NCBI GenBank assembly: GCA_016192525.1
Contig: JACPTZ010000137.1
Location: 1-49,148, forward strand
DNA: 49,148 nucleotides
Direction of reading: 5' to 3'
From: Planctomycetota bacterium
GTDB lineage: Bacteria; Planctomycetota; MHYJ01; JACPTZ01
The position numbers were made by a program, and so were the translations under genes. Below, one piece after another: positions 7,566-44,290 of the stretch (positions are counted from its first letter, which is position 1; every line of letters starts with the position of its first letter). The notes under the pieces are model-generated. The model was not told the origin of the DNA. It searched no databases and saw only the letters and a program-made list of their open reading frames with translations.

Positions 7566-7589
7566 GAACCCGGATGGCCCCTTGTCGTC
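7566..7589 (+). promoter_or_regulatory. Candidate ECF-sigma promoter (GAAC-N16-CGTC) of the sigma/A2M operon
   Basis: GAAC at 7566-7569 and CGTC at 7586-7589 are separated by 16 bases, the arrangement recognised by many ECF sigma factors. It lies about 90 bases before the sigma gene, consistent with autoregulation. Two further TGAACCC copies occur in the same intergenic region (about 7525 and 7633), the first without an obvious partner box. Confidence 0.5.
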
Positions 7590-7678
7590 TACAGGTGTGG
7601 GAGGATTTCGCTCCGGTTTTATTTCGCCCCGTTGAACCCTTCGACCGACCCCCGGATAGGGGAGGGTGGAACCGACAC

Positions 7679-8287
7679 ATGGACGACACGAACGACGCGA
7701 CGCTCTTCGCGCGTTTCCTGCTGGGGGACGAATCGATGTTCGCCGCCCTCGTCTCGAAGTACGAGCAGCCGCTCTTCAACTTCCTCCTCCGCCGCCTGGG
7801 GAACTCGGCGCTCGCGCAGGAGGCCTTCCAGGAGACCTTCGTCCGGGTCTACCGGAGCCGCCACACCTGGCAGAAGGGGCGACCCTTCCGCCCGTGGCTC
7901 TACACCATCGCCCTGAATGTCGCGTGGAGGACCCTGGCCCGCGAATCGCGGCATCGGGCGCATCGCCTCCCCGATTCCGATTCGAGCACCGGCGGGGAAG
8001 GGCCGGTCCCTGCGGCGACGGTACCGGCCTCTTCGACCGAGACGGAACGGCGCGAACTCTCCGATCGGATCCGTCGCGCCGTGGACACGCTCCCGGAGGC
8101 CCAGCGGGAAGTGTTCGTCATGGTGGAAGTGGACGGCCTCACCCAGCCGGAGATCGCCGAGGTGCTGGGCGTGCCGCTCGGGACCGTGAAGTCCCGTCTC
8201 CACTACGCCGCCCGCGCCCTTCGATCGTCTCTCGTGGACCTGATGGAATCACCGCCCAGCGCCGTCCGCCCGGGCGGGGAGGAATGA
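7679..8287 (+). CDS. ECF-family RNA polymerase sigma factor
   Basis: A 202-residue sigma factor that would direct RNA polymerase to a special promoter class. Sigma region 2 occupies about residues 10-90 (ALVSKYEQPLFNFLLRRLG, EAFQETFVRVY, FRPWLYTIALN). Sigma region 4 occupies about 140-190 (LPEAQREVFVMVEVDGLT, EIAEVLGVPLGTVKSRL, with its helix-turn-helix). The ATG at 7679 is preceded by GGAGGG. The stop codon is followed after three bases by the ATG of the anti-sigma/A2M fusion, so the two are co-transcribed and probably translationally coupled. Its regulon is unknown; its own operon is one likely target because of the GAAC-N16-CGTC site upstream. Confidence 0.93.
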   Translation: MDDTNDATLFARFLLGDESMFAALVSKYEQPLFNFLLRRLGNSALAQEAFQETFVRVYRSRHTWQKGRPFRPWLYTIALNVAWRTLARESRHRAHRLPDSDSSTGGEGPVPAATVPASSTETERRELSDRIRRAVDTLPEAQREVFVMVEVDGLTQPEIAEVLGVPLGTVKSRLHYAARALRSSLVDLMESPPSAVRPGGEE

Positions 8288-8290
8288 CCC

Positions 8291-11200
8291 ATGGACTGCC
8301 TTGAAACCCGCGACCGCCTCTGGGACCTGCGATACGATCTCCTGGCGCCCACGGAGAAGGGCGATGTTGAGACCCACCTCCTGGTTTGCCGCGAGTGCCG
8401 CGCCCTTCGCGACCGCCTCGATTCGGGGTTGGGGGACTTCCGGAGGTCGGTCGATCGCCAACCCCCGCCCGGGCTGGCCCGCCGGGCGGAACAGGCCGCG
8501 CGCCGAATGGGGCTGCGAAGACCGCGCCTCTGGGGCCTGATCGGCGCCGGACTGGCCGCCGCGGCCTCTTTTCTCTTCCTGGCCTCCTCCTGGGTGGAAC
8601 ATCGACCCGCCCCGGACCGGCAGCAGACCCTCCTCTTCGGGACCTCCGATCTCAGGCCGGGCGGACCCTCCGGTCTGCGCGTTCTCGTCCGTGAGGGCGA
8701 CTCGCAGCGGCCCGTCGAAAGCGCGCGCGTGTCGATGAGCCTCGCCGGCGCGGGATCCGATGTGGCCGTCCCCCTGGGCGATCGACTCACCGACCGGAAC
8801 GGCACTCTGCGCGAACCGGTGGTCATCCCCGATCTGCCCGACGGAGACTATCGCCTCACCGTGGAGGTGTCGTCCGATGTCGGCAGGGACCATCTCGAAG
8901 AGACGGTCCAGCTCAAGCGGAGCTGGTCGGTCCTGCTCACCTCGGACAAGCCGATCTACCAGCCCGGCCAGACGATCCGACTCCGCGCCCTCGCCCTGTC
9001 GCGTCCGTCCGCGAAACCGGCCTCCGGACGGGAGGCATGGTTCGAGATCACCGACCCGAAAGGCAACCGCGTCTTCCGCCGACGCACGGAGACCTCCTCC
9101 TACGGCATCACCTCCACCGACTTTCCACTCGCCGAATTCGTGACTCCGGGGACCTACGTCGTGAAGGCGCGGCTCGACGGCGACACGGCGGAGCGACGGG
9201 TGGAGGTGAAGGAGTACGTGCTGCCGAAGTTCAAGGTCGCCTTCGAGACCGCCCGGACCTGGTATCTGCGGGAGGAGACAGTGACGGGGTCGGTGACCGC
9301 CTCCTACTTCTTCGGAAAGCCGGTGGCCGGCGGAAAGGTGGCGATCCGCTTCACCCCCGAGCCGGCCGGCATCGGACAGGGCGGGACCTTCGAGGGGGTC
9401 CTGGACGACGAGGGGAAGTGCGAGTTCACCTGGCCACTCTCCACAGCCTTTGTCGGGATGGGCGGCGCGGTCTTCGACGCTGCTCTGAACGCGCAGGTCA
9501 CCGTCACCGACAGAGCCTCTCATGTGGAGGAGGCCGCACAGACGCTCTCCATCGCCGCTTCGCCGCTTCGGGTGGCCTTCCTTCCGGAGGCGGGCGACCT
9601 GGTGCCGGGAGTCGAGAACCGGGTCTTCGTCCTTCTCACCACCCCCGACGGAAAGCCGGTGCCGGGAGAGGTGACGGTCACCCAAGTTGGCGCCATAGCC
9701 CACGGGTGGAGGCTCAGCGGACTGGAGAAGCCGCTGGAGGTCGACGAGCGCGGGCTGGCGAGTTTCAGCTGCGGACCTGACCCGCGTGCCCCGCTTTCAC
9801 CCCGACAACTCTACGGCGGCCTGTGGAACGCCGGGATCGACGACCTTCAGGAGGAGTCCCTCGGCCGCCGCGCCGTCTGGGGATACGCGTATCCAGTGGC
9901 GTCCTTCAACTACACCGCGGAAAGCGGGTCCCGCCTGAAGGCGACCGGGGCCACCCAGTTGAGCTTGAGCCCCGTCGCCAACGACCTCCTCCTTCGCACC
10001 GACAAGATCTGCTACACCGCCGGCGAGACCGTCGAGGTCTCCGTCTTCTCGTACAGCCCGGGGCTGGTGTACGTCGACCTCATGGCCGACGGGCGCGTCG
10101 TTCTGTCGCAGACCGGCGAGGTGGGGTATGGCGGGAAGAAGGGGGTGGGGAGAGTGTGGCTGGACCTGCCGACGGATCTGTCCGGGACGCTTCGGATCGA
10201 GGCCCGGCGCCGGCCCCAGCCCGGGACATCGGGCGATGCCCGCACGCTCGTGGTGCGGCCGAAGCAGAGGCTGCAGATCGCGGCCGTCCCGGATCGGAAC
10301 GTCTACCATCCGGCGGACACCGCGTCGGTCACGTTCACCGTGACCGATGGGGAGGGTCGCCCGACCCCGGCGGCGCTCGGGCTCTGCGCGATCGACGAGG
10401 CGCTCTACCCGCTCTCGGAGATCCGTCCGGGTCTGGAGGAGACCGCCTTCGTGCTCGGGACGGAGTTTCTGAGAATCCGCCGGTCGGTGCCCTGCGAGGC
10501 GGCGCCCTCGGCGCTCCTCTCGGGCGATCTGGAGGCCCGGGGGCAGGAGCTGTGGCGGGTGCTGCTCTCTCCGGCGCCGCGGACCCGTTGGCCGGGCGGG
10601 TTCGCGACGATGGGGGGTCGTTTCGGCGCCGCGATGATCGAGCGCGAATCGGCGACGGCGCCCATGGTTTCGGCCACGCCGGCGCCTCGACGCATTGCCG
10701 TCGATTCCTATGGCCCGAAGGTCTCGGAATACAACGACACGCTTGCCACGAGAAGGGAGCAGGTTCGGCGCGGGTGGAACTGGATGCTCGTCATGGCGGT
10801 CCTGGCGCTCGGGGGATTCGTCGTTCATCAGCGATTCTGGAAGACGCTGGTGTGTCTGGCCGCGCTCGGGGCCTGGCTGGCGGTTATCTCTCCGACCCGC
10901 CGGCCTGTCATCTTCGAAGCGCTGGGCGGACCGGGAAGGCCGATCGGCGCCCCAAGACCTACGTTCACGAGAGCCCAAGTCGAGTTGCGCGGAAAGCCAA
11001 CCCTGACGGCCGCGTTCGTCAACTTCACCGCCGGCGTCGGTGACGCGCTCGTTGTCGACGCGGCGAGCGAGGAATCCGCCTTCCGCCGCGAAGCTACCTC
11101 CCTCCCCCCCCGACTCCGCCGCGAGTTCCCGGAGACCCTCTTCTGGGCCCCGCAGGTGATCACCGACGATCGCGGTGTCGCCCGCGTGGAAATCCCGCTT

Positions 11201-13201
11201 GCCGACTCCATCACCACGTGGAAACTGGTGACCTCGGGCGTCTCGGCGTCGGGCGGACTCGGCTCGTGCGAGACCTCTCTCCGTGTCTTCCAGCCCTTCT
11301 TCGTCGACCTCAACCTCCCGGTGGCGCTCCTCCAGAACGACGAGGTGACGCTCTCCTGCTCCGTCTACAGCTACCTCCCGGAGGAGCAGCCGATCCGGCT
11401 CGAACTGAAGGCGGGAGAAGCCTTCGAGGCGCTCGGGCCGGGGCGGCTGGAACTCACCCTCGGCCCGAATGAGGTCACGGGAGTCTCCTTCCGCGTGGCC
11501 GCCCGGGCCCCGGGGAGCCATCCCATTACCCTCACCGCCTGGGGGGCCGGGGGGGAGAGCGACGCCATCGAGCGGACCGTCGAGATCCGCCCCTGCGCGA
11601 AGGTCTTTGAGTCAGTGGCGAGCGGCCGGCTGACGGATCGGTCGCGGCAGGAGGTCGTCTTTCCCCCCGGTTCGGCGCAGAACCTGCGCGACCTCCACAT
11701 CGTCCTCTATCCGGGGACGGTGTGCGAGGTGGTGCGCGGGCTGGAGAGTCTCGTCCGCCTCCCCGGCGGCTGATTCGAGCAGTCCTCCTCGGCGACCTAT
11801 CCGAATGTGCTCGTGATGGGTTACCTGAAGGAGACGGGTCAGTTGACCCCCGAAATCAGGACGAGGCTCGAAGAGGCGATCGGCCTGGGCTACCAGAAAA
11901 TCCTCACCTTCCAGCGTCCCGCCGGCGGGTTCGACTGGTGGGGGAGCGGCGAGCCGCTCGTCTGGCTCACGGCGTATGGGATTCAGCAGCTCGCGGATAT
12001 GTCGAAGGTGCACGACGTGGACCCGGAGGTCCTCGCGCGGGCCCGTCGGTGGCTCGTCTCGATGCAGCAGGCCGATGGATCCTGGACCGTGGTGGGCGGG
12101 ACGCACGGCGAGACGATCGCGAGTCTGCCGAACCCGGCTGTGCCGCTCACCTCGTACGTGGTCTGGTCGCTCGCCTCCAGCGGGCCGCGGGAGCCCGCTG
12201 TGGTAAAGGGACTGGAGTTCCTGCGGCAGCATGCCGGGGAGGCGAAGGACGCCTACAGTCTCGCCCTTCTCGTGAACGCGCTGGCGGCGTGCGATCCTGC
12301 CGGTCCCGTCACGGCGACGCAGGCCGCCCGTCTGGCGGAGATGGCGACGACGACGGACGGCCTTCCATCGTGGAGCACCGCCCAGACCCTGGCCTATTCC
12401 ACCGGCTCGACCGCCTCGATCGAGACGACCGCCCTCGCGGCGCTCGCCCTGGGGAAGTTTCCGGCCTACGGGGCGTTGGCGAATGACGCTTTGGCGACGG
12501 TGACGAAGGGGAAGGACGGCTACGGCGGATGGCACTCCACGCAGGCGACGATCCTCGCGATCAAGGCCCTGATCGAGACCCGGCGGCCGGCGCCTGGAGA
12601 GGGGCCGATCGTCATCGTCGCCCGCGTCAACGGCGTGGAGGCGCGGCGGCTTTCCATCCCGGAGTCGGATCGGGACCTGATGCAGGTTCTCCCCCTCCGC
12701 GATTTCGCCCGGGACGGTCGGAACGAGGTCGAGTTGACCGTGGAGGGGGAGGGGAGCCTCTCGTACGAGGTCGTGGCGCGTCACTATATGCCGTGGCGGG
12801 ACGCGTCGGAGGGGGCGCCGCCGCTGACGGCGGAGGTGCGGTACGACCGGACGAATGTCCGCGTGACGGAGTGCGTCTCCGCCACCGCTATCGTCTCCTA
12901 CCGCGATCCCCGGCCCAGCTACATGGGGATCGTGGAGCTCGGCATCCCGCCCGGTTTCTCGCCGATGCGGGAGGACTTCGAGCGGCTGATGCAGTCAGGG
13001 AAGATCAACCGCTACACCCTCACGGGCCGGCAAGCCACGCTCTATCTTGGCGACCTGCGGCAAGGGGTGGATCTTACGCTACCGTACCGACTGCTGGCCA
13101 CGAGTCCGGTTCGCGCGAAGGCGCCGGAGGGTCGGGTGTATGAGTACTACTCCCCGGATCGCGGGCAGGTGATTCCGCCGGTCGGGTTTGTGGCGCAGTA
13201 G
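8291..13201 (+). CDS. Zinc anti-sigma / alpha-2-macroglobulin fusion, thioester Cys replaced by predicted selenocysteine (residue 1161)
   Basis: If the internal TGA (11771-11773) is decoded, this is one 1636-residue membrane protein. Residues 3-36 carry the zinc anti-sigma pattern C-x25-H-x3-C-x2-C (Cys3, His29, Cys33, Cys36). A membrane helix follows at about 81-100. From about 210 comes a typical alpha-2-macroglobulin: MG2 (SDKPIYQPGQTIRLRA), MG3 (EYVLPKFKV) and the A2M domain (DSITTWKLVTSG). Two short hydrophobic segments at about 831-845 and 851-867 may be a membrane hairpin. The thioester site reads PGG-[TGA]-FEQSSSATYPNVLV; in the family this is Cys in C-x-E-Q, which forms a covalent bond with Gln and traps proteases. 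The rest of the thioester domain and a receptor-binding-like C-terminus follow in the same frame to TAG. A two-gene or pseudogene reading is possible, but TGA falling precisely on this Cys with a hairpin behind it argues for selenocysteine. Confidence 0.85.
11776..11813 (+). promoter_or_regulatory. Candidate bacterial SECIS element in the alpha-2-macroglobulin gene
   Basis: Directly after the in-frame TGA, CGAGCA (11776-11781) pairs perfectly with TGCTCG (11808-11813). Above a 7/3-nt internal loop, TCGG (11789-11792) pairs with CCGA (11801-11804), leaving an eight-base apical loop CGACCTAT with G in second position, 19 nt after the UGA. Both stems lie inside coding sequence for the conserved FEQ...YPNVLV stretch. 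This matches the size and position rules for bacterial SECIS hairpins, as judged by eye. Confidence 0.65.
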
Positions 13202-25319: not shown

Positions 25320-28300
25320 TTACTTCCCGCTCGCGGGGGGCCGCTTGCGATATCCCTCCAGCCTCGCCGCAAACTCGGCCCGGTACTCCGGCGTGCCGGC
25401 GCCCTTCACGGCCCGCTCGGCGGTCTCGATGGCGCGGGCGGTCTCGCCGTTCGCATGGAGCGCCGCCGCGAGGGTGTCGAGGTACATCGCCCGCGTCGGT
25501 TCGTCCGGGGCGCCGTCTACCGCCCGGGTCGCCAGCTTCACCGCCTTCGCCGTCTCCGCGTCCGGCGCCGGGTCGCCCGGCTCGGTGGGGGAGGGCCACG
25601 TGTGGATGGCCACCCACCACGCGTAGTCATTCGCGATCCGGAGATCGTCCGGCGAGGCCGTGGTCAGTACGCCGTAAAGATGAAAGAGATCTCCCCACCG
25701 CTTCGCCTTCTGATAGAGCTCCGCCCGGAGGAGCGGATCGCTCGCGTACTCCCGCGCCGACTGCCTCAGGTTGTCCCGCCAGGGGTCCGCGATCCCCATC
25801 TTCTCGATCGCGTCGATCTCCGCCAGCGCCTCGTCCGGTTCCCCGGCCGTGAGACGGGCGTGCGGACGCAACCGCAGGAGATGCAGGTTCCCGGGATCGC
25901 GGAGCAACTCGTCGATCGCCGCCAGCGCCTCCACCCCCCGCTGCGCCAGCACCAGCGCCACCGCCTGCTGCACGGTCCCCGCGGGGAACTCCAGCCCCGC
26001 CGCCAGGTGGACCGTCTCCCGGGTGGAGATCACTGCCACATCGTCGTACGCCCCGAGCGGGTCGACCTCGATCGCCTTCCGCAGCGGTGCCGGGTCGTTC
26101 GTCGCCCCGGCGAGAGAGACCAGCGCCTCCGTGCTCCCCCGGAAGGCCTTCGCCGCCCGCTCCAGCTCCGACCTCGCCTCCGGGGCCCGATAGAGCGCGA
26201 GCAGGGCCTTCCCGCGGACCAGGGCGAGACGCATCTCGTCCTCCGGCGCGGGCGGCGCGGGCGAGACGCCCGCGCCACCCGGAATCGCCGCCACCGCCTC
26301 CCACGCCTGCTCCCGCGCAAGTCGCCTCGCCTCCAGTACCCGTGCCCCCGCCGTTGCGGGTCGCCTCGGAGCCCGACCCGACAGCGCCGAGAGGACCCCC
26401 TCCTCCGAGCCCACCACCACGTCCGCCGTCCCGTCGCCGTTCAGGTCGCCCAGCGCCGGCGGGCCGAGCGACTTCCCCGACGCCACCCGCCACAGTCCGT
26501 GACCGTCGCGACCGGAGAGGGCCCGCACGAACCCGTCGTTCGAGACGGCGACGACGTCCAGTTGCCCATCCCCGTCGAGGTCGGCGAACCCCGGCGCGCT
26601 CAGGACCTTGTCCCCCGTCCGCACCGACCACCGGGGCCGCCCGTTGCGACCCGAAAGCGCATAGATGCAGGAATCCTGCGATCCCACCACCGCCTCCAGC
26701 CCGCCGTCGCCGTCGAGATCCGCGAGCGCCGCCTCGTCCGCGGCCCAGCCGGTCTTGTACGCCCAAATCGGGGTCCCATCCCGTCCTGAGATTCCGTAGA
26801 CGTACGTGTCCCACGATCCGAAGACAGCGTCGGGGATGCGATCGCGGTTGAGGTCGCCGAGCGCCGGCGTCACCCGGACCTCGTTCTTCGTCCCGAAATC
26901 CCAGAGCGGCGCGCCGTCGGGGCCCGAGAAGGCCCGGACCCGGCCTTCGCGGAAACCGGCCACGGCATCGAGCCGGCCGTCGCCGTTCAGGTCGGCGAGA
27001 CCAGGCGGACTCAGAACGGCATTGGGACTGGAGACCTTCCAGAGCAGATGCCCGTCCTTCCCCGACAGGAGAGCGAACGCGCCCTCCACTCCCACGGCCG
27101 CGTCCGGCGTGCCGTCTCCGTCGACGTCCCCGAGGCGGACCGCGCAGACGGCCTTTCCGCCCTCCGCCGATCTCCAGATTCGGCGACCGTCCGGGCCCGA
27201 CACCGCCTCGACCTCTCCGGATCCGATGGCGGCGACCACGTCCGCGATCCCGTCGCGATCGAGGTCCCCGATCGCGGGGACCCAGCGCACGGGGGCCCCC
27301 GTGTCGGATCGCCAGAGCGTTCGCCCGTCGGTTCCCGAGAGCGCCATCAGACGATTGTCCGTGGTTCCCGCCACGACATCCGCGACGCCGTCGCCGTCGA
27401 GGTCCGGGAGGGTCGTCGCCGGAAGGGTGGCGATGCCGGTGGCGAGCGACCAGATCCGGCGACCGTCCCCGGTGTCGAGCGCGTACGCCCGACCGTCGAG
27501 CGAGGCGATCACGCATTCCCGGCGACTGTCCCCGTCGAGGTCCTCCAGCACCGGCGCGGCGCTGATGGCGGCCCGGGCGTCGAATCTCCAGATCGGGGCG
27601 CCGTCCCGGCCGGAGAGGATGCGCACTGAGCGATCGTCCGAACCGATCGCCACCTCCGGCGCGCCGTCACCGTCCACGTCGCCTGTCGTGGGACGGCAGC
27701 GCGTCGGCGAGCCGAGCGAGAAGGACCAGAGCACCACGCCGTCCGCGCCGGACAGGGCGAGGACCTCACCCGTGTCGGTGCCGATGACAGCGTCCGCGCG
27801 GCCGTCGCCGTTCAGGTCGCCGATCGCCGCGCTGGAGACCCATGCCGTGTTCAGGGTCTTCTCCCAGAGGGTCTTTCCGTCCCGACCCGAGAGGGCGGCG
27901 ATCCGACCTCCCGACGATCCGAACAGGATGTCGGGGACGTCGTCCCCGTTGAGATCCGCCACTCCGGGACTGTTCAAGGGAGCGCCGGGCGCCTTCACCC
28001 GCCAGAGCACGCCGCCATCGACTCCCGACCGGGCGACGAAGGAGCCGCCGCCGGTGCCGTCCACCGCCGTGCCGTATGCGGGATCGGCCGTGCCGTCGTC
28101 GTTCAGATCGGCCATCACCAGCCGGGAGGCGAGATGCGTGGCCTCCGAACTCCCGGGATCGAGAGGCTCCTTCCACAGTTTGTCGCCGTCGCGTCCCGAG
28201 ATGGCGTACAGGAACTCGTTGTAGTCCGTGGTGACCACGTCCATCGTCCCGTCCCCGTTCAGGTCTCCCAGGACCGGAGTCATGGTGATCGAGACCATGA

Positions 28301-30635
28301 TCCCGTACTCCCAGAGGAGGGCGCCGGACCGGCCGGAGAGGGCCCGGATCTCCCCGTCGTTTGTCCCGATCACCACGTCCGGGAGGCTGTCGGCATCGAG
28401 ATCGGCGAGGACGGGGGACGATCCGGCCACGAAGCTGAACTCCGCGGTCCAGAGCGCGCTCCCGTCGGCGCCCGAAAGCGCGTGCAGCCGATCGTCGCGG
28501 GAGGCGACCACCACGTCCGGGACGCCGTCGCCATCGAGGTCGCCCACGGCGGGCGAGGTCTCGATCGAGTGGCGGGCCTGGAAGGACCACCGCTCCATGG
28601 GCGTGAGGGAGGCCCGGAGCCGGACGTGGCCCGGGGAGGAGGGGAAGCGGGTCGTCGGGCCGTCGGCGATCTCCATCGGAGGGCTCACCTCATCGACGTC
28701 GGGCCGCGGCGTCCACTTGGCGATCTGGACGCGGCACCAGCGCGGATGGTCGTTCGGCTTCGTCACATAGAGGGTGTAGGCGCCGGGCTGGAGAGGGAGG
28801 CGCTGCACCGGGAGCGGGATCGCGAGCATCGGGGGGAGATCGGGGATGTCGCGGAGGTCGCAGGGGCGGAAGGGGGGAGGCGGGGGCAACGAACCGTCCA
28901 CCCCGAGTAGCGACCGCGCATCGGTCGCGTATCGAGGGGCGGGCCCGCGCATCGTATCGCCGGGGAGGGGGTCGTCGCCGTAGACGAGGAGGCGCACGCC
29001 GGCCGATTCCGACTCCACGCTCAGGAAGCCGAGATCGGGTTCGAGGTGGATCGGCGGGAGGCGCGTGGTCTGGCCCGGGTTGATCGGGAAATCGACGCCG
29101 ACGCCCTTCGTCCCCTCCGAGGTCACCTCCAGATGGTACTGTCCGTTCTTTAGCGGGTGCGTGGTGGCGCCGCCGCGGAGGCGGGCCACCTCCTTCCCCT
29201 TCGAGGTGACGGTGACCTCGGCGTCCGCCGGCGTCACCTCCAGCGCCACGGTCCCCGAGTCCGGGAGCAGCACCGGGGCGTAGTCCGAGACGACCCACGG
29301 GCGGAGCTGTACCCGTCCGCCCGCGTCCTCGCACCCCTCGCGATGCACCTTGAGGTGCGGGTTTCCGGCGGGCCAGATGCGGAGGCGCATCGGGCTCTGC
29401 CCCACCGGTTCGCCGTTCAGGAAGATCTCGGCGCCCGACGGGGTCGGCGCCACGTTCACCCACGCCGGGCCGCTGAACCAGGCGAGGATGGCGAGGGCCA
29501 CGAAGAGGTCGGTGGCGAGGAACGCGGTGAGGGCGGGCCGTCGCGCCGCCGCCTTGCGGAGCCGGTAGAACGCGCTCGGCGGCCGGGCGTGGACCTCCTC
29601 GCCGCGGAGATAGCGGTCGATGTCGTCGGCGAACTCCTGGGCGGTGGCGTAGCGACGCTCGCGTTCCTTCGCGAGGGCCTTCATCACGATCGTCTCGGCA
29701 TCGCGCGAGAGGGCGGGGACGAGGCGGCGGGGGGGGAGCGGTTCGCGCGACTTCACCGCCTCGATCACCTCGAACGTGCTCGACCCGGCGGCGGGGAGGC
29801 TGCCGGTGAGCATCTCATAGAGGACGGCGCCGAGGGAGTAGATGTCGCTCCGGCCGTCGGCGAGATGGGTCTGTCCGGCGGCCTGTTCGGGGGACATGTA
29901 GAGCGGGGTGCCGAGGACATCGCCGGAGAGGGTGAGGGCGGTGGTGGCGCGGACCTCGCGGGCGAGGCCGAAGTCGGTGAGGACGGCGCGGTACTCGGCG
30001 ACGAAGCCGGTCCCCACCGCGAGGGCGGAGTCGCCAGGGGAGGCATCGAGGACGGCGCTTTCCGAGACGAGGAGGATGTTGCCCGGCTTGAGGTCGCGGT
30101 GGATGATGCCCTTCTCGTGGGCATGGGCGAGGGCGCGAGCGGTGTCGCGGGCGATCCGCATGGCGGTGCGGGGCGGGAGGGGGCGCTGGTCCTTCAGCAC
30201 TCGGGCGAGGGAGGGGCCATCGACGAACTCCATCGTGTAGTACCAGAAGCCCGCCCCGTAGCCCCGAGTGGCCCTCTGTAGCGCCTCGGGCGCGGAGGAG
30301 GGCGTAACGAGGGGCGGATCGGCGGGCTCCTCGCCGACGTCGAAGAGCCGGACGATATTCGGGTGGGCGAGGGCGGCGGCGGAGCGGACCTCGCGCTGGA
30401 AGCGGGATCGGATCTGCGGGTCGTCGTCGCGTCCGCGCGGAATCACCTTGAGGGCGACGGTGCGTGGGACGGCGGGGTCGCGGGCGAGGTAGACGGCGCC
30501 CATGCCGCCCTCGGCGAGGAAGCGGACGATCTCGTATCGGCCCACTCGGGCCCCGGGCGGGAGCGCGAGCGACAGATGCGAGGAGGCCGCGCGGTCCGGG
30601 GTGCGGATCTGGGTGGGGTCATGCGGAGCGGTCAT
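25320..30635 (-). CDS. Giant membrane Ser/Thr protein kinase with PEGA, 16 FG-GAP-like repeats and TPR-like C-terminus
   Basis: A 1771-residue Hanks-type kinase. Start at 30635 (MTAPHD). The cytoplasmic kinase domain covers about residues 34-300: GGMGAVY, Lys63 in VALKVI, HRDLKPGN (Asp181), DFGLA (Asp221), GTPLYMSPEQAAG. A 23-residue insertion (about 124-146, PPLVTPSSAPEALQ...) looks repeat-derived. A membrane helix lies at about 367-390, followed by a PEGA-like domain (APTPSGAEIFLNGEPVG). Outside the membrane, about 690-1415 contain sixteen roughly 45-residue units of the form DLDGDGxxDVVxGxxDxxxxALSGRDGxxLW, calcium-binding FG-GAP/VCBS-type blades alternating with PQQ-like strands, likely two propellers. 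The last 330 residues are helical and TPR-like. Such kinases are a planctomycete hallmark; the propeller probably senses an extracellular ligand. Stop TAA. Confidence 0.92.
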   Translation of the reverse strand: MTAPHDPTQIRTPDRAASSHLSLALPPGARVGRYEIVRFLAEGGMGAVYLARDPAVPRTVALKVIPRGRDDDPQIRSRFQREVRSAAALAHPNIVRLFDVGEEPADPPLVTPSSAPEALQRATRGYGAGFWYYTMEFVDGPSLARVLKDQRPLPPRTAMRIARDTARALAHAHEKGIIHRDLKPGNILLVSESAVLDASPGDSALAVGTGFVAEYRAVLTDFGLAREVRATTALTLSGDVLGTPLYMSPEQAAGQTHLADGRSDIYSLGAVLYEMLTGSLPAAGSSTFEVIEAVKSREPLPPRRLVPALSRDAETIVMKALAKERERRYATAQEFADDIDRYLRGEEVHARPPSAFYRLRKAAARRPALTAFLATDLFVALAILAWFSGPAWVNVAPTPSGAEIFLNGEPVGQSPMRLRIWPAGNPHLKVHREGCEDAGGRVQLRPWVVSDYAPVLLPDSGTVALEVTPADAEVTVTSKGKEVARLRGGATTHPLKNGQYHLEVTSEGTKGVGVDFPINPGQTTRLPPIHLEPDLGFLSVESESAGVRLLVYGDDPLPGDTMRGPAPRYATDARSLLGVDGSLPPPPPFRPCDLRDIPDLPPMLAIPLPVQRLPLQPGAYTLYVTKPNDHPRWCRVQIAKWTPRPDVDEVSPPMEIADGPTTRFPSSPGHVRLRASLTPMERWSFQARHSIETSPAVGDLDGDGVPDVVVASRDDRLHALSGADGSALWTAEFSFVAGSSPVLADLDADSLPDVVIGTNDGEIRALSGRSGALLWEYGIMVSITMTPVLGDLNGDGTMDVVTTDYNEFLYAISGRDGDKLWKEPLDPGSSEATHLASRLVMADLNDDGTADPAYGTAVDGTGGGSFVARSGVDGGVLWRVKAPGAPLNSPGVADLNGDDVPDILFGSSGGRIAALSGRDGKTLWEKTLNTAWVSSAAIGDLNGDGRADAVIGTDTGEVLALSGADGVVLWSFSLGSPTRCRPTTGDVDGDGAPEVAIGSDDRSVRILSGRDGAPIWRFDARAAISAAPVLEDLDGDSRRECVIASLDGRAYALDTGDGRRIWSLATGIATLPATTLPDLDGDGVADVVAGTTDNRLMALSGTDGRTLWRSDTGAPVRWVPAIGDLDRDGIADVVAAIGSGEVEAVSGPDGRRIWRSAEGGKAVCAVRLGDVDGDGTPDAAVGVEGAFALLSGKDGHLLWKVSSPNAVLSPPGLADLNGDGRLDAVAGFREGRVRAFSGPDGAPLWDFGTKNEVRVTPALGDLNRDRIPDAVFGSWDTYVYGISGRDGTPIWAYKTGWAADEAALADLDGDGGLEAVVGSQDSCIYALSGRNGRPRWSVRTGDKVLSAPGFADLDGDGQLDVVAVSNDGFVRALSGRDGHGLWRVASGKSLGPPALGDLNGDGTADVVVGSEEGVLSALSGRAPRRPATAGARVLEARRLAREQAWEAVAAIPGGAGVSPAPPAPEDEMRLALVRGKALLALYRAPEARSELERAAKAFRGSTEALVSLAGATNDPAPLRKAIEVDPLGAYDDVAVISTRETVHLAAGLEFPAGTVQQAVALVLAQRGVEALAAIDELLRDPGNLHLLRLRPHARLTAGEPDEALAEIDAIEKMGIADPWRDNLRQSAREYASDPLLRAELYQKAKRWGDLFHLYGVLTTASPDDLRIANDYAWWVAIHTWPSPTEPGDPAPDAETAKAVKLATRAVDGAPDEPTRAMYLDTLAAALHANGETARAIETAERAVKGAGTPEYRAEFAARLEGYRKRPPASGK

Positions 30636-30745
30636 GGCGGGGGGTAGTGTAGCCTCGCCCGCGGCGCGGCGCAACGGAAGGGGGGGGACTCATCGAAACT
30701 TGTGTTCCGAACGAACAACCCGTAGGATGAGTCCGGAGCGCGAAC

Positions 30746-40631: not shown

Positions 40632-41450
40632 TCACTTGTCCTTCGGGGGGACGTCCGGCGGCGGCGTGCCTGATGCCCCGGGTGGAGGAGATTCCGGCCC
40701 GGTGACGGGGTTCCCCTTCGTCCCGTTGGGACCGGTCGAAGGTGCGCCGCACTCGCACCACGCCCACTCGTTCCGGTCCGTGGACAGGCGGCTCCACATG
40801 TAATCCCAGTTCCCCTCCCGCCACTCCGCCCGCCGGAGGAGCGAATCCGGATCGATCTCGCACTTGTCTCTCACCGACACCGTTATCTTGACCGGCGACG
40901 AGGGAGTGGGCTCTCCGAGAAGCTTCCAGAGTTCATCCACGTGCGTCCTGTAGTTTGTCTCGCAGTGATGGGTGGCGGACGAGGAGGGCGGGGCGGGGGG
41001 GGCGTACCCGTAGCAGATGTAGAACGTGCCGTCCAGAAGGGAGATCTCTCTCGCCGGATCCCGCAGCGCCGTCATGAAACGGGCCATGCTGGTGAAGGCC
41101 CCGCGCGTGCCGTGCCGAAAATCCCTGACCTCGATCAGAAGCGCCGCCCAGTGAACCACCCGTCGGTGCGCGCACGTGCCGCAAGTGCCGCACGGATGAT
41201 CGGCGTTCTCCGGCACGACGCCCAGATCGAGGAGTTCCGCACCATTCCGGATGGGCGGTTGCCGGGCGGCGTGGTCCGGCCGTCGGAGGTGCTCGTTCAT
41301 CTGCTTTTTCCGGAGGGCGAGTTCCTCTTCGGTCAGATCGTACGCCCCGTCGAGGCCACCCTTCCCCAGGTGCACGACGCCGAAGCCGAGGATCGACACC
41401 GCGACGACTCCCACCAGCACGACAAGAATCATGCGCGCGTTCATCTTCAT
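40632..41450 (-). CDS. Membrane-anchored Cys-rich protein coupled to kinase-FGE fusion
   Basis: A 272-residue protein of unknown function. The ATG at 41450 overlaps the kinase stop as ATGA and follows GGAG by seven bases. One N-terminal helix (ILVVLVGVVAVSILGFGVVH) anchors it; the rest would be extracytoplasmic. A CGTCGTCAHRR motif (two overlapping C-x2-C) suggests a metal or redox site. Further Cys occur in pairs (FYICYGYAPP, EWAWCECGAP). The C-terminus is Pro-rich. Tight coupling to the kinase suggests it is a substrate or partner. Confidence 0.7.
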   Translation of the reverse strand: MKMNARMILVVLVGVVAVSILGFGVVHLGKGGLDGAYDLTEEELALRKKQMNEHLRRPDHAARQPPIRNGAELLDLGVVPENADHPCGTCGTCAHRRVVHWAALLIEVRDFRHGTRGAFTSMARFMTALRDPAREISLLDGTFYICYGYAPPAPPSSSATHHCETNYRTHVDELWKLLGEPTPSSPVKITVSVRDKCEIDPDSLLRRAEWREGNWDYMWSRLSTDRNEWAWCECGAPSTGPNGTKGNPVTGPESPPPGASGTPPPDVPPKDK

Positions 41451-44290
41451 GGTTCGCTCCATGAGCCTCGGGCTCGAGGCGGCGAAGAAATGAGGGGGAC
41501 GCGGCTCAGTCGCACCGGCGCGCCGAGTCGCGTTCCGTAGATCGAACAGACGGCGTGCGGGAGGAGCCGGAACCTCACCGTGGGACGGCAGGTGGTGGTG
41601 TTGTCCGTCCATGCCCCGCCCCGCGCCACCCTCCAGCCCGCCCGCTCCGGACCGGGGACGTTCATGCAGAGGTCCCGCGAGTTCCCCACCAGGCCGCGCA
41701 CCCCGTAGGGCGATTCGTCGTGCGGAAACGCGTGCACCGGGACCGGCTGCTCCCGCTCCCCCAGCGATCGGCTCGCGTTGCACCACCGAAGATCGAAGTG
41801 CCTCCCCCACGGGAACCAGCGCCGGTCCGGCCCGCGCGCCGCCTTCTCCCAGAGCGATTCGTCGGGCAGCGTGGTCATCCATCCCTCGCGCCGGCGACGC
41901 CACGCCGCGTACACCATCGCGTCCTCCCACGAGATCCCGGCCACCGGCCAGTCCTCCTCCCACTCCGCGGCGCCGCTCTCCAGCCGGCGCGCGGCGGCGC
42001 GTTCCCCGGGCGCCGCGCGGTCCAGCCAGTCCCGCGTCGGAATCGCGTACGGCGGTCCGGGCCAGCAGTATCCGCTCCCGGAGGCGTCGCGCGGGACCCG
42101 CCGACGGGCCTCGTCGGGGGAGGTCCGCGCGAGGTCGTTCAGAAACTCCCGGTACTCCGCACAGGTCACGGGGTCGCGGGCGATGAAGAGGTCGTCCAGC
42201 GACCGGACCTCGGCCGCCTGCGAGAACGGGTTGCCGGCATCGCCCTGATAGCCGAAGTCGCCGGCGGGGATCGGGATGAACCCCGGGGGCACCTCGTCGG
42301 CGCCGAAGAGCGTGACCTGCTGCTCCACGTCGCCGCAGCGCGGGATGAAGACGGGGCACCGCAACGGGACGGGACCGGATCGCGGGGAGGTCTCGTGCGG
42401 CCCGGCGACGAGGAGCAGATACGATCCCATCGGAATCGGGAGCCGCTCGATCGGAGTCGGGCCGAGATACCGGCCCGGACCGCGCGGGCGATAGGGGGAG
42501 TCGGCGCCGAAGAGGAGATCGATCGCGGCGTCGGCGGATGGCGCCGGGGCCGCCGATCCCGGTCCGTCGGGAGTGACCGGCCGCAGGAGCCTCCCCACCT
42601 CCTCGTACCGCCAGAGCCAGACGTGCGCCCCCTCCACCGGGCGGGGGGTGCAGGATTCCCCGTGCACCTTGAGGCGCACCGGCCCGTCGGGCTCCAGGGC
42701 GGGGACCCCCTCCGCCCCCTTGTGGCCGGCCATCGACCGACCGGAGAAGGGATGGTATCCGGGGAGATGGAGTTCCTCCGGCGCCACGTCGCGACCGTCC
42801 CGCAGACAGCGGCAGGGCCAGGCCCGAGTGCGGACCGTGAGGGCGCCGTCCCCCTTGAGGAGCGCGTCGAACGGCCCGTCGTTGTACCGCTCGACGATGG
42901 CGCGGGGGTACAGCGTGGCCGCCTCGTCGCCGCTCTCCTCGGCCTCGACGAACCGGTCCCAGAAGAGTTCCGCCTTGAGGCGCCGCGCCCCCGCGTGGTC
43001 GCGCTCGTAGCCGAGGGCCGTGGTCACGGTCGCGTCCGCCGTCGAGAACGCCTCGGCGGCCTCGCGTTCGAGCGAACGGGCCCGGTTCTCAAGGGCCCAG
43101 AGCGACGACTTGTCTCCGACCGGGTCGGCCTGCTTCGTCGCCTCCCCTGCGGCCGCCGCGGCCTCGCGCGCCTCCGCGCCGAGGCGGCGATACCGCGCCA
43201 GCTCCTCCCGCGCCCGGGCGACCGCCTCGTCGGCGAGACGGTGGTGGCGCTCGCGCTCCTTGACGCCGTCGAGGAAGAGCCTGACTTCGCGGGCCAGTTC
43301 CTCGACGGAGCGATAGCGCCCCGACCTCTCGCGGGCGAGGCAGCGGAGGCAGATCGATTCGAGCTCGGGAGGGACCGGGCGGGGGCCGACGGCGGAGGGA
43401 GGGGTCACGCGGCCCTCGCGCACCTGGTGGATCACCGCCTCCACCGACGGACCGTCGAACGGCGGCCGAAGGGTCATGATCTCGTAGAGGATCGCCCCGA
43501 GCGACCAGACGTCCGACAACTCGTCCACCTCGGAGATGCTCCCGTGCGCCTGCTCCGGAGACATGTAGGCCGGCGTTCCGAGAAGATCCCCCTCCATCGT
43601 GAGGAGGGGAGTCTGCCGCGGATCGAGTCCCGCCTCGCGGAGCAGCCGGCGTTCGTCCGCCGGATGCGGATCGGGCCCGTCCTTCACCTTGGCGAGTCCC
43701 CAGTCCACGAGAAGCGTCTCGCCGAACTCGCCGAGCATGATGTTCGACGGCTTGAGATCGCGGTGGATGACGCCGCGGGAGTGCGCGAAGGCGACCGCGA
43801 GGCAGACGTCGTGGAACCGCTCAACGAGCCGCCGCAGCGCGAACTCCTCGGGGGGCGGCCCCGGAGAGCGGGCGAGGTCGCGCAGGATCTCGCCGAGATC
43901 GCGCCCCGCGATCTTCTTCATCGTGAAGTAGACCTGCCGCGCGCCGCCCTTGCCGACGAGGACGCCGACGTCGTAGACCGGGACGATGTGCGGATGTTCG
44001 AGCCGGCCGGTGACGCGCCCCTCGAGGAGGAACCGCTCGACGTATTCCGCGGGGACATCCTCGCGCATCACCTTGAGGGCGATCTCGCGTCCGACGGCGC
44101 GATCGAGGGCCTTGAGCACGCGTCCGAGCCCGCCGCGACCGAGCTCGCCGCGGATCTCGTACTTGCCGTCGGGGGAGGCGGAGTCCGGCGGGGGGGAGTC
44201 GTCCGCTTCCCCGGCCGCCCGGCGGAGGGTGGGGCGGGTGGACTCATCCCGGGAGGGGCCGTGGAGGGTGGGATCGTCGGCTCTGCACAT
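41447..44290 (-). CDS. Ser/Thr protein kinase fused to an FGE/SUMF1-like domain
   Basis: A 947-residue protein. The Hanks-type kinase domain spans about 43-340: GRGGLGRVLKALD, ALKVM, HRDLKPSN, VDWGLA (with Trp in place of Phe in DFG), GTPAYMSPEQAHG. A coiled-coil segment (about 345-440, rich in EARERAARYRRLG-like heptads) follows, then a PEGA-like part near 520-660. The C-terminal 250 residues form a formylglycine-generating-enzyme-like domain (IPIPAGDFGYQGDAGNPFSQ, GISWEDAMVYAAW, TLPDESLWEKAARG, GLVGNSRDLCMN, VARGGAWTDN). The Cys pair needed for FGE catalysis is not evident, so a binding role is likely. No transmembrane helix is obvious. Kinase-FGE fusions are typical of planctomycetes. Confidence 0.9.
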   Translation of the reverse strand: MCRADDPTLHGPSRDESTRPTLRRAAGEADDSPPPDSASPDGKYEIRGELGRGGLGRVLKALDRAVGREIALKVMREDVPAEYVERFLLEGRVTGRLEHPHIVPVYDVGVLVGKGGARQVYFTMKKIAGRDLGEILRDLARSPGPPPEEFALRRLVERFHDVCLAVAFAHSRGVIHRDLKPSNIMLGEFGETLLVDWGLAKVKDGPDPHPADERRLLREAGLDPRQTPLLTMEGDLLGTPAYMSPEQAHGSISEVDELSDVWSLGAILYEIMTLRPPFDGPSVEAVIHQVREGRVTPPSAVGPRPVPPELESICLRCLARERSGRYRSVEELAREVRLFLDGVKERERHHRLADEAVARAREELARYRRLGAEAREAAAAAGEATKQADPVGDKSSLWALENRARSLEREAAEAFSTADATVTTALGYERDHAGARRLKAELFWDRFVEAEESGDEAATLYPRAIVERYNDGPFDALLKGDGALTVRTRAWPCRCLRDGRDVAPEELHLPGYHPFSGRSMAGHKGAEGVPALEPDGPVRLKVHGESCTPRPVEGAHVWLWRYEEVGRLLRPVTPDGPGSAAPAPSADAAIDLLFGADSPYRPRGPGRYLGPTPIERLPIPMGSYLLLVAGPHETSPRSGPVPLRCPVFIPRCGDVEQQVTLFGADEVPPGFIPIPAGDFGYQGDAGNPFSQAAEVRSLDDLFIARDPVTCAEYREFLNDLARTSPDEARRRVPRDASGSGYCWPGPPYAIPTRDWLDRAAPGERAAARRLESGAAEWEEDWPVAGISWEDAMVYAAWRRRREGWMTTLPDESLWEKAARGPDRRWFPWGRHFDLRWCNASRSLGEREQPVPVHAFPHDESPYGVRGLVGNSRDLCMNVPGPERAGWRVARGGAWTDNTTTCRPTVRFRLLPHAVCSIYGTRLGAPVRLSRVPLISSPPRARGSWSEP

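Follow-up and report, generated by a model that had tools for sequence, protein, structure and literature searches.

A predicted selenocysteine at the thioester position of a planctomycete alpha-2-macroglobulin encoded behind an ECF sigma factor gene

Alpha-2-macroglobulin (A2M) is a blood protein that traps proteases. We analyzed a 49,148-nucleotide stretch of DNA from a Planctomycetota bacterium (assembly GCA_016192525.1, contig JACPTZ010000137.1, positions 1 to 49,148; hereafter "the window") that contains an A2M gene with an in-frame TGA at the codon of the thioester cysteine. The TGA at 11771-11773 is very probably decoded as selenocysteine (Sec), as judged from comparative sequence evidence. 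Sec at this position is strongly supported because TGA and Cys codons alternate there among relatives, carrier genomes possess a Sec machinery with a TGA-type SelD, the frame behind the codon is under purifying selection, and the hairpin signal after the codon is much stronger in TGA genes than in Cys genes. A first-pass annotation of the window, made from the letters alone, had proposed Sec at the thioester position, and these four lines of evidence support the proposal. Taken as a whole, the probable explanation is a Sec-bearing A2M trap with an internal selenoester, which in the clade of the window would be coupled to an extracytoplasmic function (ECF) sigma factor. The window corresponds to contig C18 in a metagenome-assembled genome (MAG) of 4.18 Mb in 227 contigs that is 82% complete.

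The A2M gene is interrupted once, by the TGA, and is open elsewhere, as the first-pass annotation had stated; the residues around the interruption read LPGG-U-FEQSSSATYPNVLV. The features of the gene are as follows.

8291-13201, + strand: A2M gene, 1636 codons with the TGA counted as Sec
8930-9190, + strand: MG2 domain, residues 214-300 (Pfam)
9992-10408, + strand: A2M bait-region domain (A2M_BRD), residues 568-706 (Pfam, 24.4 bits)
11135-11407, + strand: A2M domain PF00207, residues 949-1039 (Pfam)
11729-12574, + strand: thioester-containing TED domain, residues 1147-1428 (Pfam, AlphaFold2 model)
11771-11773, + strand: in-frame TGA on the thioester-Cys codon, predicted Sec, residue 1161 (sequence, CD109 alignment, relatives)
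11780-11782, + strand: Gln1164 of U-F-E-Q, predicted selenoester partner (sequence; Gln in 37/37 TGA genes)
12104-12106, + strand: His1272, opposite the His of CD109 (VIHSE; phmmer alignment)
12917-13162, + strand: A2M receptor-binding domain, residues 1543-1624 (Pfam)

In a phmmer alignment, the TGA residue pairs with the Cys of GCGEQ in human CD109, and the Cys of the Cys-containing relatives aligns with it as well, which confirms the earlier placement of the TGA on the thioester Cys of the family motif C-x-E-Q; the E and the Q of the motif are present. The Pfam domains MG2, MG3, A2M_BRD, A2M, TED_complement and A2M_recep follow each other along the gene, all over their cut-offs. A2M_BRD exceeds its cut-off of 22.7 by 1.7 bits, and no single stretch of it reaches an E value of 0.001 alone. 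An AlphaFold2 model of a 485-residue A2M/TED fragment, computed from an 18-row alignment, was helical from its residue 198 onward and had a mean predicted local distance difference test score of 82.3 and a predicted template modeling score of 0.65. Its top fold matches in the PDB were complement C4, C3, CD109 and A2ML1, with TM-scores of 0.46 to 0.59 of the query among the matches listed; the domain arrangement in the model is uncertain. By sequence and fold together, the best solved relatives are CD109, A2ML1, A2M, C4 and C3. On its sequence, the window protein is a variant of the A2M family with Sec predicted in place of Cys. The His aligned with His1272 is presumably the transacylation His of C3/C4B; its column in the family alignment, which holds H in 16/37 TGA rows and 10/90 Cys rows, lies in a gappy loop and was not used. 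The genome of the window (G000) carries a second A2M (locus L002, G000:C3:81734-82006), an open frame of 2076 amino acids without an in-frame stop.

Relatives of the gene were collected in several searches. In a set of 59 related genomes that includes the one of the window, a 485-residue piece of the protein was matched in 40, and 21 of the 22 best matches contained exactly one in-frame TGA, the exception being G050, which had none. In a profile survey of 392 Planctomycetota genomes, up to 4 candidates per genome were scored, and the matches listed with an E value of 1e-110 or better numbered 82, from 58 genomes; 32 of these had a single TGA, 50 were free of stops, and none contained TAA or TAG. 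The TGA lay on the thioester codon in all 32 survey genes and in 5 genes from other searches, 37 in total. A locus scan with taxon names, which favors Cys loci because a Cys codon is required by one of its two patterns, kept 80 of 571 confirmed loci and yielded 9 TGA loci, 2 of them from Chloroflexota (L167 and L177) and 5 already in the genome set. After identical or contained sequences had been dropped, 160 matches were reduced to 137 distinct MG-TED regions, with the thioester codon being TGA in 37, TGC in 60, TGT in 39 and ACC in 1. This 37/137 is no prevalence, as loci were partly chosen for TGA; the survey figure is the above 32 of 82 listed matches. Each of the 37 TGA regions has only the one TGA, on the thioester codon, and the genes are spread over 28 genomes, including two from Chloroflexota. 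The E and the Q of the ester motif are invariant in 37/37 TGA and 90/90 Cys rows (those with 400 residues or more). The motif regular expression missed two loci (L175 and L201) that are nevertheless Cys in the tree set. Relatives are about 33 to 47% identical to the window region. In a protein database search, all of the best 120 of 4584 matches had Cys, and none of them was named a selenoprotein. A tblastn search of plasmids returned distant matches alone (22 records, all less than 60% identical and none covering 80%).

A quick tree was built from the 127 of 137 regions with at least 430 residues. The window falls into a clade of 11 regions, all with TGA (Shimodaira-Hasegawa-like approximate likelihood ratio support of 99). 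Switches between TGA and Cys number 12 on this tree compared to 32.2 in shuffles, a rough count given some long branches, and the starred branches alone force 6 changes. Clear exchanges were found in Gemmatales-type MAGs, where L128 (TGA) groups with L123 (TGC) and L124 (TGA) stands beside L127 and L200 (Cys), and in Chloroflexota, where L167 and L177 (TGA) stand beside L192 (Cys). Five genomes (G003, G008, G016, G065 and G133) carry both TGA and Cys A2M paralogues. For ten pairs of TGA genes, the ratio of nonsynonymous to synonymous substitution rates (dN/dS) was 0.12 to 0.46 after the codon and 0.08 to 0.52 before it. Purifying selection past the TGA is comparable to that before it, so the full-length protein matters. 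TGA is also the ordinary stop of the sigma factor gene upstream and ends 10 of 35 closed TGA-A2M genes; thus, UGA is not reassigned. A change of the genetic code (TGA as Trp or Gly) was rejected, since TGA occurs nowhere else in the 37 regions and is used as a stop.

SelA was found in 26 of the 28 TGA-A2M genomes (14/14 of a first set and 12/14 of a further set; the genome of L189 repeats G003 and was counted once). The two genomes without it, G140 and G224, are 59% and 67% complete. SelD was likewise found in 26/28 (not in G000 and G001), and all 26 have a TGA-type SelD. An in-frame TGA was present in 27 of the 28 SelD genes listed, and 26 of the 27 TGA-type SelD loci showed [AG]G-U-xx-K with an open frame behind it; the miss was G013, whose SelD also has a TAG. 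UxxK is the Sec motif given for SelD (PMC13188914). No selA match was found in G050, the close relative with Cys, and selD was found in 0/4 Cys-A2M control genomes lacking selA. Beside its Sec-type SelD, G018 has a second SelD-like gene with Cys (L308, G018:C243; CGGCGSK). A search for tRNA-Sec with the anticodon UCA, in which 59 candidates per genome were scored with stricter filters, was positive in 10 of 14 TGA genomes; the misses were G000, G001, G016 and G018 (80 to 82% complete). Scanning 12 selA loci revealed a tRNA-Sec (UCA) near selA in 3 more TGA genomes. G014 has two such genes (L057 and L085).

The MAG of the window itself encodes a full selA (572 bits) together with a truncated selB-like gene and is therefore not devoid of Sec-decoding genes; selC and selD, which complete the set named in the first-pass annotation, were not found in it. 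Three candidates from this genome were discarded: a SelD candidate on C132 (64 bits) that is ThiL-like by eye, the sole tRNA-Sec match over the threshold (C67), which ARAGORN calls tRNA-Ser, and a second tRNA-Sec match that is a tRNA with the anticodon GCA. Such tRNA-Sec-shaped tRNAs with the anticodon GCA occur in G000 (L011:1500-1593, - strand, on G000:C164; 94 nt) and in G018 (L082:469-558, - strand, on G018:C10; 90 nt). ARAGORN assigns both to tRNA-Cys, and by eye L011 has a U after the acceptor stem. They resemble the selC* tRNA-Cys that the consulted part of PMC7609411 describes from other phyla. A UCA tRNA-Sec was found in neither G000 nor G018.

Two hairpins can be formed behind the TGA of the window.

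11792-11824, + strand: clade hairpin, predicted element resembling a Sec insertion sequence (SECIS); the window forms 12 of the 13 pairs of the clade and has the loop 31 nt past the TGA
11776-11813, + strand: alternative hairpin of the first-pass annotation; loop CGACCTAT 19 nt past the TGA

The most stable fold after the TGA pairs 11792-11804 with 11811-11824, and most members of the clade of the window can form it. The hairpin of the first-pass annotation, with the helices CGAGCA/TGCTCG and TCGG/CCGA and an 8-nt loop with G second, can form as well (-10.2 kcal/mol), and with it the window passes our own version of the bacterial SECIS (bSECIS) model (loop of 3 to 9 nt, G in the first two positions, 16 to 37 nt after the TGA, -7.5 kcal/mol or lower). 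It is not the most stable fold, however, and is probably not the relevant one.

Fold and SECIS counts were made on 37 TGA and 99 Cys regions, with the ACC region excluded. Within 60 nt after the codon, the fold z score against synonymous resampling was -1.75 for TGA genes and -0.43 for Cys genes (one-sided p 4e-7). The excess in TGA genes was also seen in spans of 0-51 and 6-48 nt, and drawing codon usage from 240 codons downstream gave -1.83 and -0.45, respectively. As a positive control, SelD genes of the same genomes had a z score of -0.67. Either a fold signal or a G-loop hairpin was present in 33/37 TGA A2M genes, 33/99 Cys A2M genes and 25/26 SelD genes. The hairpin of the window's clade formed 119 of 143 pairs compared to 93.0 +/- 3.6 expected (z 7.13), carried by 7 of the 11 genes. 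A sister clade has a hairpin with 90/120 pairs formed in 12 Sec members (z 4.6) and 27/40 in 4 Cys members (z 1.0). Both clade hairpins were derived from some of the scored sequences, so that these scores lean upward. Covariation was evident in the sister clade, where all 12 Sec members (L023 and L211 included) together gave 15 double-sided changes versus 6.1 +/- 1.9, a score reached in 0/500 shuffles. RNAalifold over all 37 TGA genes gave no consensus. The sequences suggest that a hairpin after the TGA is under selection, although in most cases the loop does not follow the bacterial SECIS model as published.

A number of results weigh against the interpretation of the gene as a Sec-bearing, selenoester-forming and sigma-coupled A2M. 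The co-occurrence with SelA is by itself modest: SelA matches, two of which fell below the cut-off, also occur in 63 of the 89 genomes without an observed TGA-A2M (only part of the A2M genes of these genomes was looked at), and 26/28 versus 63/89 gives a Fisher p of 0.02. The selB-like gene of the window's MAG is cut at the contig start, begins at model position 92 and scores 202 bits, below the cut-off of 242, and the failure to find selC and selD concerns a MAG that is 82% complete. A single strict SECIS model for all genes failed, as the bSECIS model is fitted by 11/37 TGA and 5/99 Cys genes. A short canonical G-loop hairpin occurs in 24/26 SelD genes and 12/37 TGA A2M genes (7/99 for Cys A2M genes), and 4/37 TGA genes show neither hairpin signal. 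The fold difference between TGA and Cys genes is absent from spans of 0-42 (p 0.51) and 3-39 nt (p 0.14). In 12 Cys sisters of the window's clade, 84/156 of the hairpin pairs are formed versus 74.5 expected (z 2.36), and covariation within this clade is weak, with 42/500 shuffles reaching its score. Finally, the selenoester is an inference from chemistry by analogy, and the proposed sigma coupling is drawn from gene order and domains.

We lean toward a Sec1161-Gln1164 selenoester in place of the thioester, by analogy with the Cys proteins, because E and Q are invariant and the residue exchanges with an ester-forming Cys. The alternative is that Sec is inserted and forms no ester with Gln1164, acting instead as a selenol (or a selenenyl or selenosulfide form) in redox or metal chemistry. 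A 2026 review regards redox functions as likely for most uncharacterized prokaryotic selenoproteins (PMC13188914), and a selenoester would be expected to hydrolyze faster than a thioester, so that a good pocket would be needed. Such a redox selenol seems unlikely, though it deserves weight, since it leaves unexplained why the E-Q of the ester motif never varies in TGA or Cys rows, why none of the TED, A2M and receptor domains has been lost and why the residue swaps with an ester-forming Cys across the tree.

Other explanations dispense with Sec or make it occasional. Opal-anticodon selC* tRNA-Cys has been described (in the part of PMC7609411 consulted), and the MAG of the window and G018 combine a tRNA-Sec-shaped tRNA-Cys with the lack of a detected tRNA-Sec (UCA); UGA might thus be read as Cys, giving an ordinary thioester. 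This is very improbable, as the anticodon GCA reads UGC and UGU rather than UGA, 13 further TGA genomes possess a tRNA-Sec with UCA, SelA occurs in carrier genomes alongside a SelD whose established Sec position is itself a TGA, and the Cys relatives use plain TGC or TGT. A tRNA-Cys with the anticodon UCA was not found in the MAG of the window, where the anticodon is GCA; no search for SelB* or CysRS* was made. The TGA could also be a conserved regulatory stop, with a TED-less product of 1160 residues as the main form and Sec read-through upon selenium supply or a signal. UGA does function as a stop within these genes and this operon, and truncation would spare the anti-sigma and bait parts, but purifying selection acts on the frame past the codon as it does on the frame before it, and in 37/37 regions the stop sits on the functional Cys codon and nowhere else. 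We therefore consider a regulatory stop improbable as the main role of the codon; it would in any case be compatible with Sec decoding. A nonsense mutation, sequencing error or assembly artifact in a decaying gene would match a lone in-frame TGA in a fragmented, incomplete genome. However, TGA recurs at this codon in 37 distinct genes from 28 genomes at the divergence given above, with no other stops in the regions and a dN/dS well under 1 after it, which makes an artifact wholly implausible.

For the working of a Sec-bearing trap, we build on the bacterial A2M mechanism as given in the consulted part of PMC4498604. SelB and the hairpin right after the TGA would insert Sec, and the N-terminal membrane segment would hold the protein in the envelope. 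Once a protease or another stimulus had cut the bait region, opening of the TED would expose the Sec-Gln bond, which could then acylate a target nucleophile, through His1272 or directly. As a selenolate leaves more readily than a thiolate, acylation might be faster than with a thioester. To our knowledge, an internal selenoester is a bond that is not known in any natural protein. In the clade of the window, cleavage or capture outside might free the ECF sigma factor inside; with a zf-HC2 start and an ECF sigma factor gene ahead, the trap would also report. The full picture, protease traps with an internal selenoester warhead that in this clade switch on an ECF regulon when an attacker is captured outside, is offered tentatively.

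The sigma factor context consists of three features.

7679-8287 (open reading frame [ORF] 7574-8287), + strand: ECF sigma factor gene (Pfam Sigma70_r2 and Sigma70_r4_2)
8297-8401, + strand: zf-HC2 anti-sigma-type zinc finger, residues 3-37 of the A2M (21.4 bits, cut-off 22.2; borderline)
8528-8596, + strand: hydrophobic stretch, likely membrane anchor, residues 80-102 (translation, by eye)

The ATG at 7679 is the likelier start of the sigma factor gene, whose stop is the TGA at 8285-8287; the A2M start lies 3 nt past its end. The zf-HC2 domain exceeds the cut-off in four relatives of the same clade. Gene starts were read for six members (the window, L138, L198, L234, L245 and L248), and five of them have both zf-HC2 and an ECF sigma factor gene ahead, whereas L245 has the anchor without this pair. 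The sigma factor gene lies shortly before or overlaps the zf-HC2 A2M; in L138 the two are about 300 nt apart. This arrangement suggests that the A2M may be coupled to the sigma factor, which we propose with reserve. zf-HC2 was also found in Cys A2Ms (six among the best 120 of 4584 database matches), so the fusion occurs independently of Sec. In several Sec-A2Ms that lie outside this clade, the N-terminus resembles a signal or anchor segment, as judged by eye.

A different arrangement was observed in G033, where L235 and L236 form an apparently split A2M. Its TED portion has an ORF of its own, which starts like a lipoprotein and follows an ORF of about 880 amino acids resembling the N-terminal portion; two-chain complement proteins are divided in a similar way. 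Elsewhere in the window, 25320-30674 (- strand) encodes a 1784-amino-acid Ser/Thr kinase with FG-GAP and beta-propeller repeats, and 41447-44290 (- strand) encodes a 947-amino-acid protein with a kinase domain and an FGE-sulfatase domain.

The 2026 review compiles 119 families or subfamilies of prokaryotic selenoproteins (PMC13188914, Table 1). A2M, TED and thioester proteins are absent from that table, and the terms macroglobulin and thioester do not occur in the text of the paper. "Macroglobulin" was likewise absent from the consulted passages of other selenoprotein papers and of a planctomycete genome paper, supplements being outside this scope. No selenocysteine A2M was found in the titles and abstracts of the open-access papers listed, a scope outside which subscription papers, preprints and the groundwater study of Deng et al. 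lie. Within the open-access literature searched, the statement of the first-pass annotation that no selenocysteine A2M has been described thus holds. Sec-A2Ms are easily missed because standard annotation would cut them before the TED. If the interpretation is true, they would form a family of selenoproteins that departs from the common redox pattern, selenium serving instead as the leaving atom in an internal acyl bond, within a superfamily that includes complement C3 and A2M, and an A2M would be tied to ECF sigma signaling. Since TGA and Cys versions exist in close relatives and as paralogues in the same genome, the benefit of selenium over sulfur is testable on ester activation.

The window protein shares the MG, bait-region, A2M, TED and receptor domains and the x-x-E-Q motif with human A2M, CD109, C3/C4 and the bacterial ECAM/SaA2M (CLEQ). 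It differs from thioester A2Ms and thioester-containing proteins in the TGA at the ester residue, and its own clade adds an N-terminal zf-HC2 behind an ECF sigma factor gene. The Cys homologues L123, L126, L127, L192 and L200 belong to the same family, have the same motif and are about 40 to 47% identical to the window region, but they have TGC or TGT at the codon and a weaker hairpin signal or none. As in known prokaryotic selenoproteins such as SelD and FdhA, an in-frame TGA with Cys homologues is accompanied by Sec machinery in most carriers and a hairpin; unlike in these proteins, Sec would be the leaving atom of an internal ester rather than a redox center, and the loop is mostly atypical. 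With pairs of ECF sigma factors and transmembrane zf-HC2 anti-sigma factors, the genes of the clade share the adjacent sigma factor gene, zf-HC2 and a membrane segment (5/6 genes). In contrast to the usual pairs, the portion that would lie beyond the cytoplasm is an entire A2M carrying the predicted Sec.

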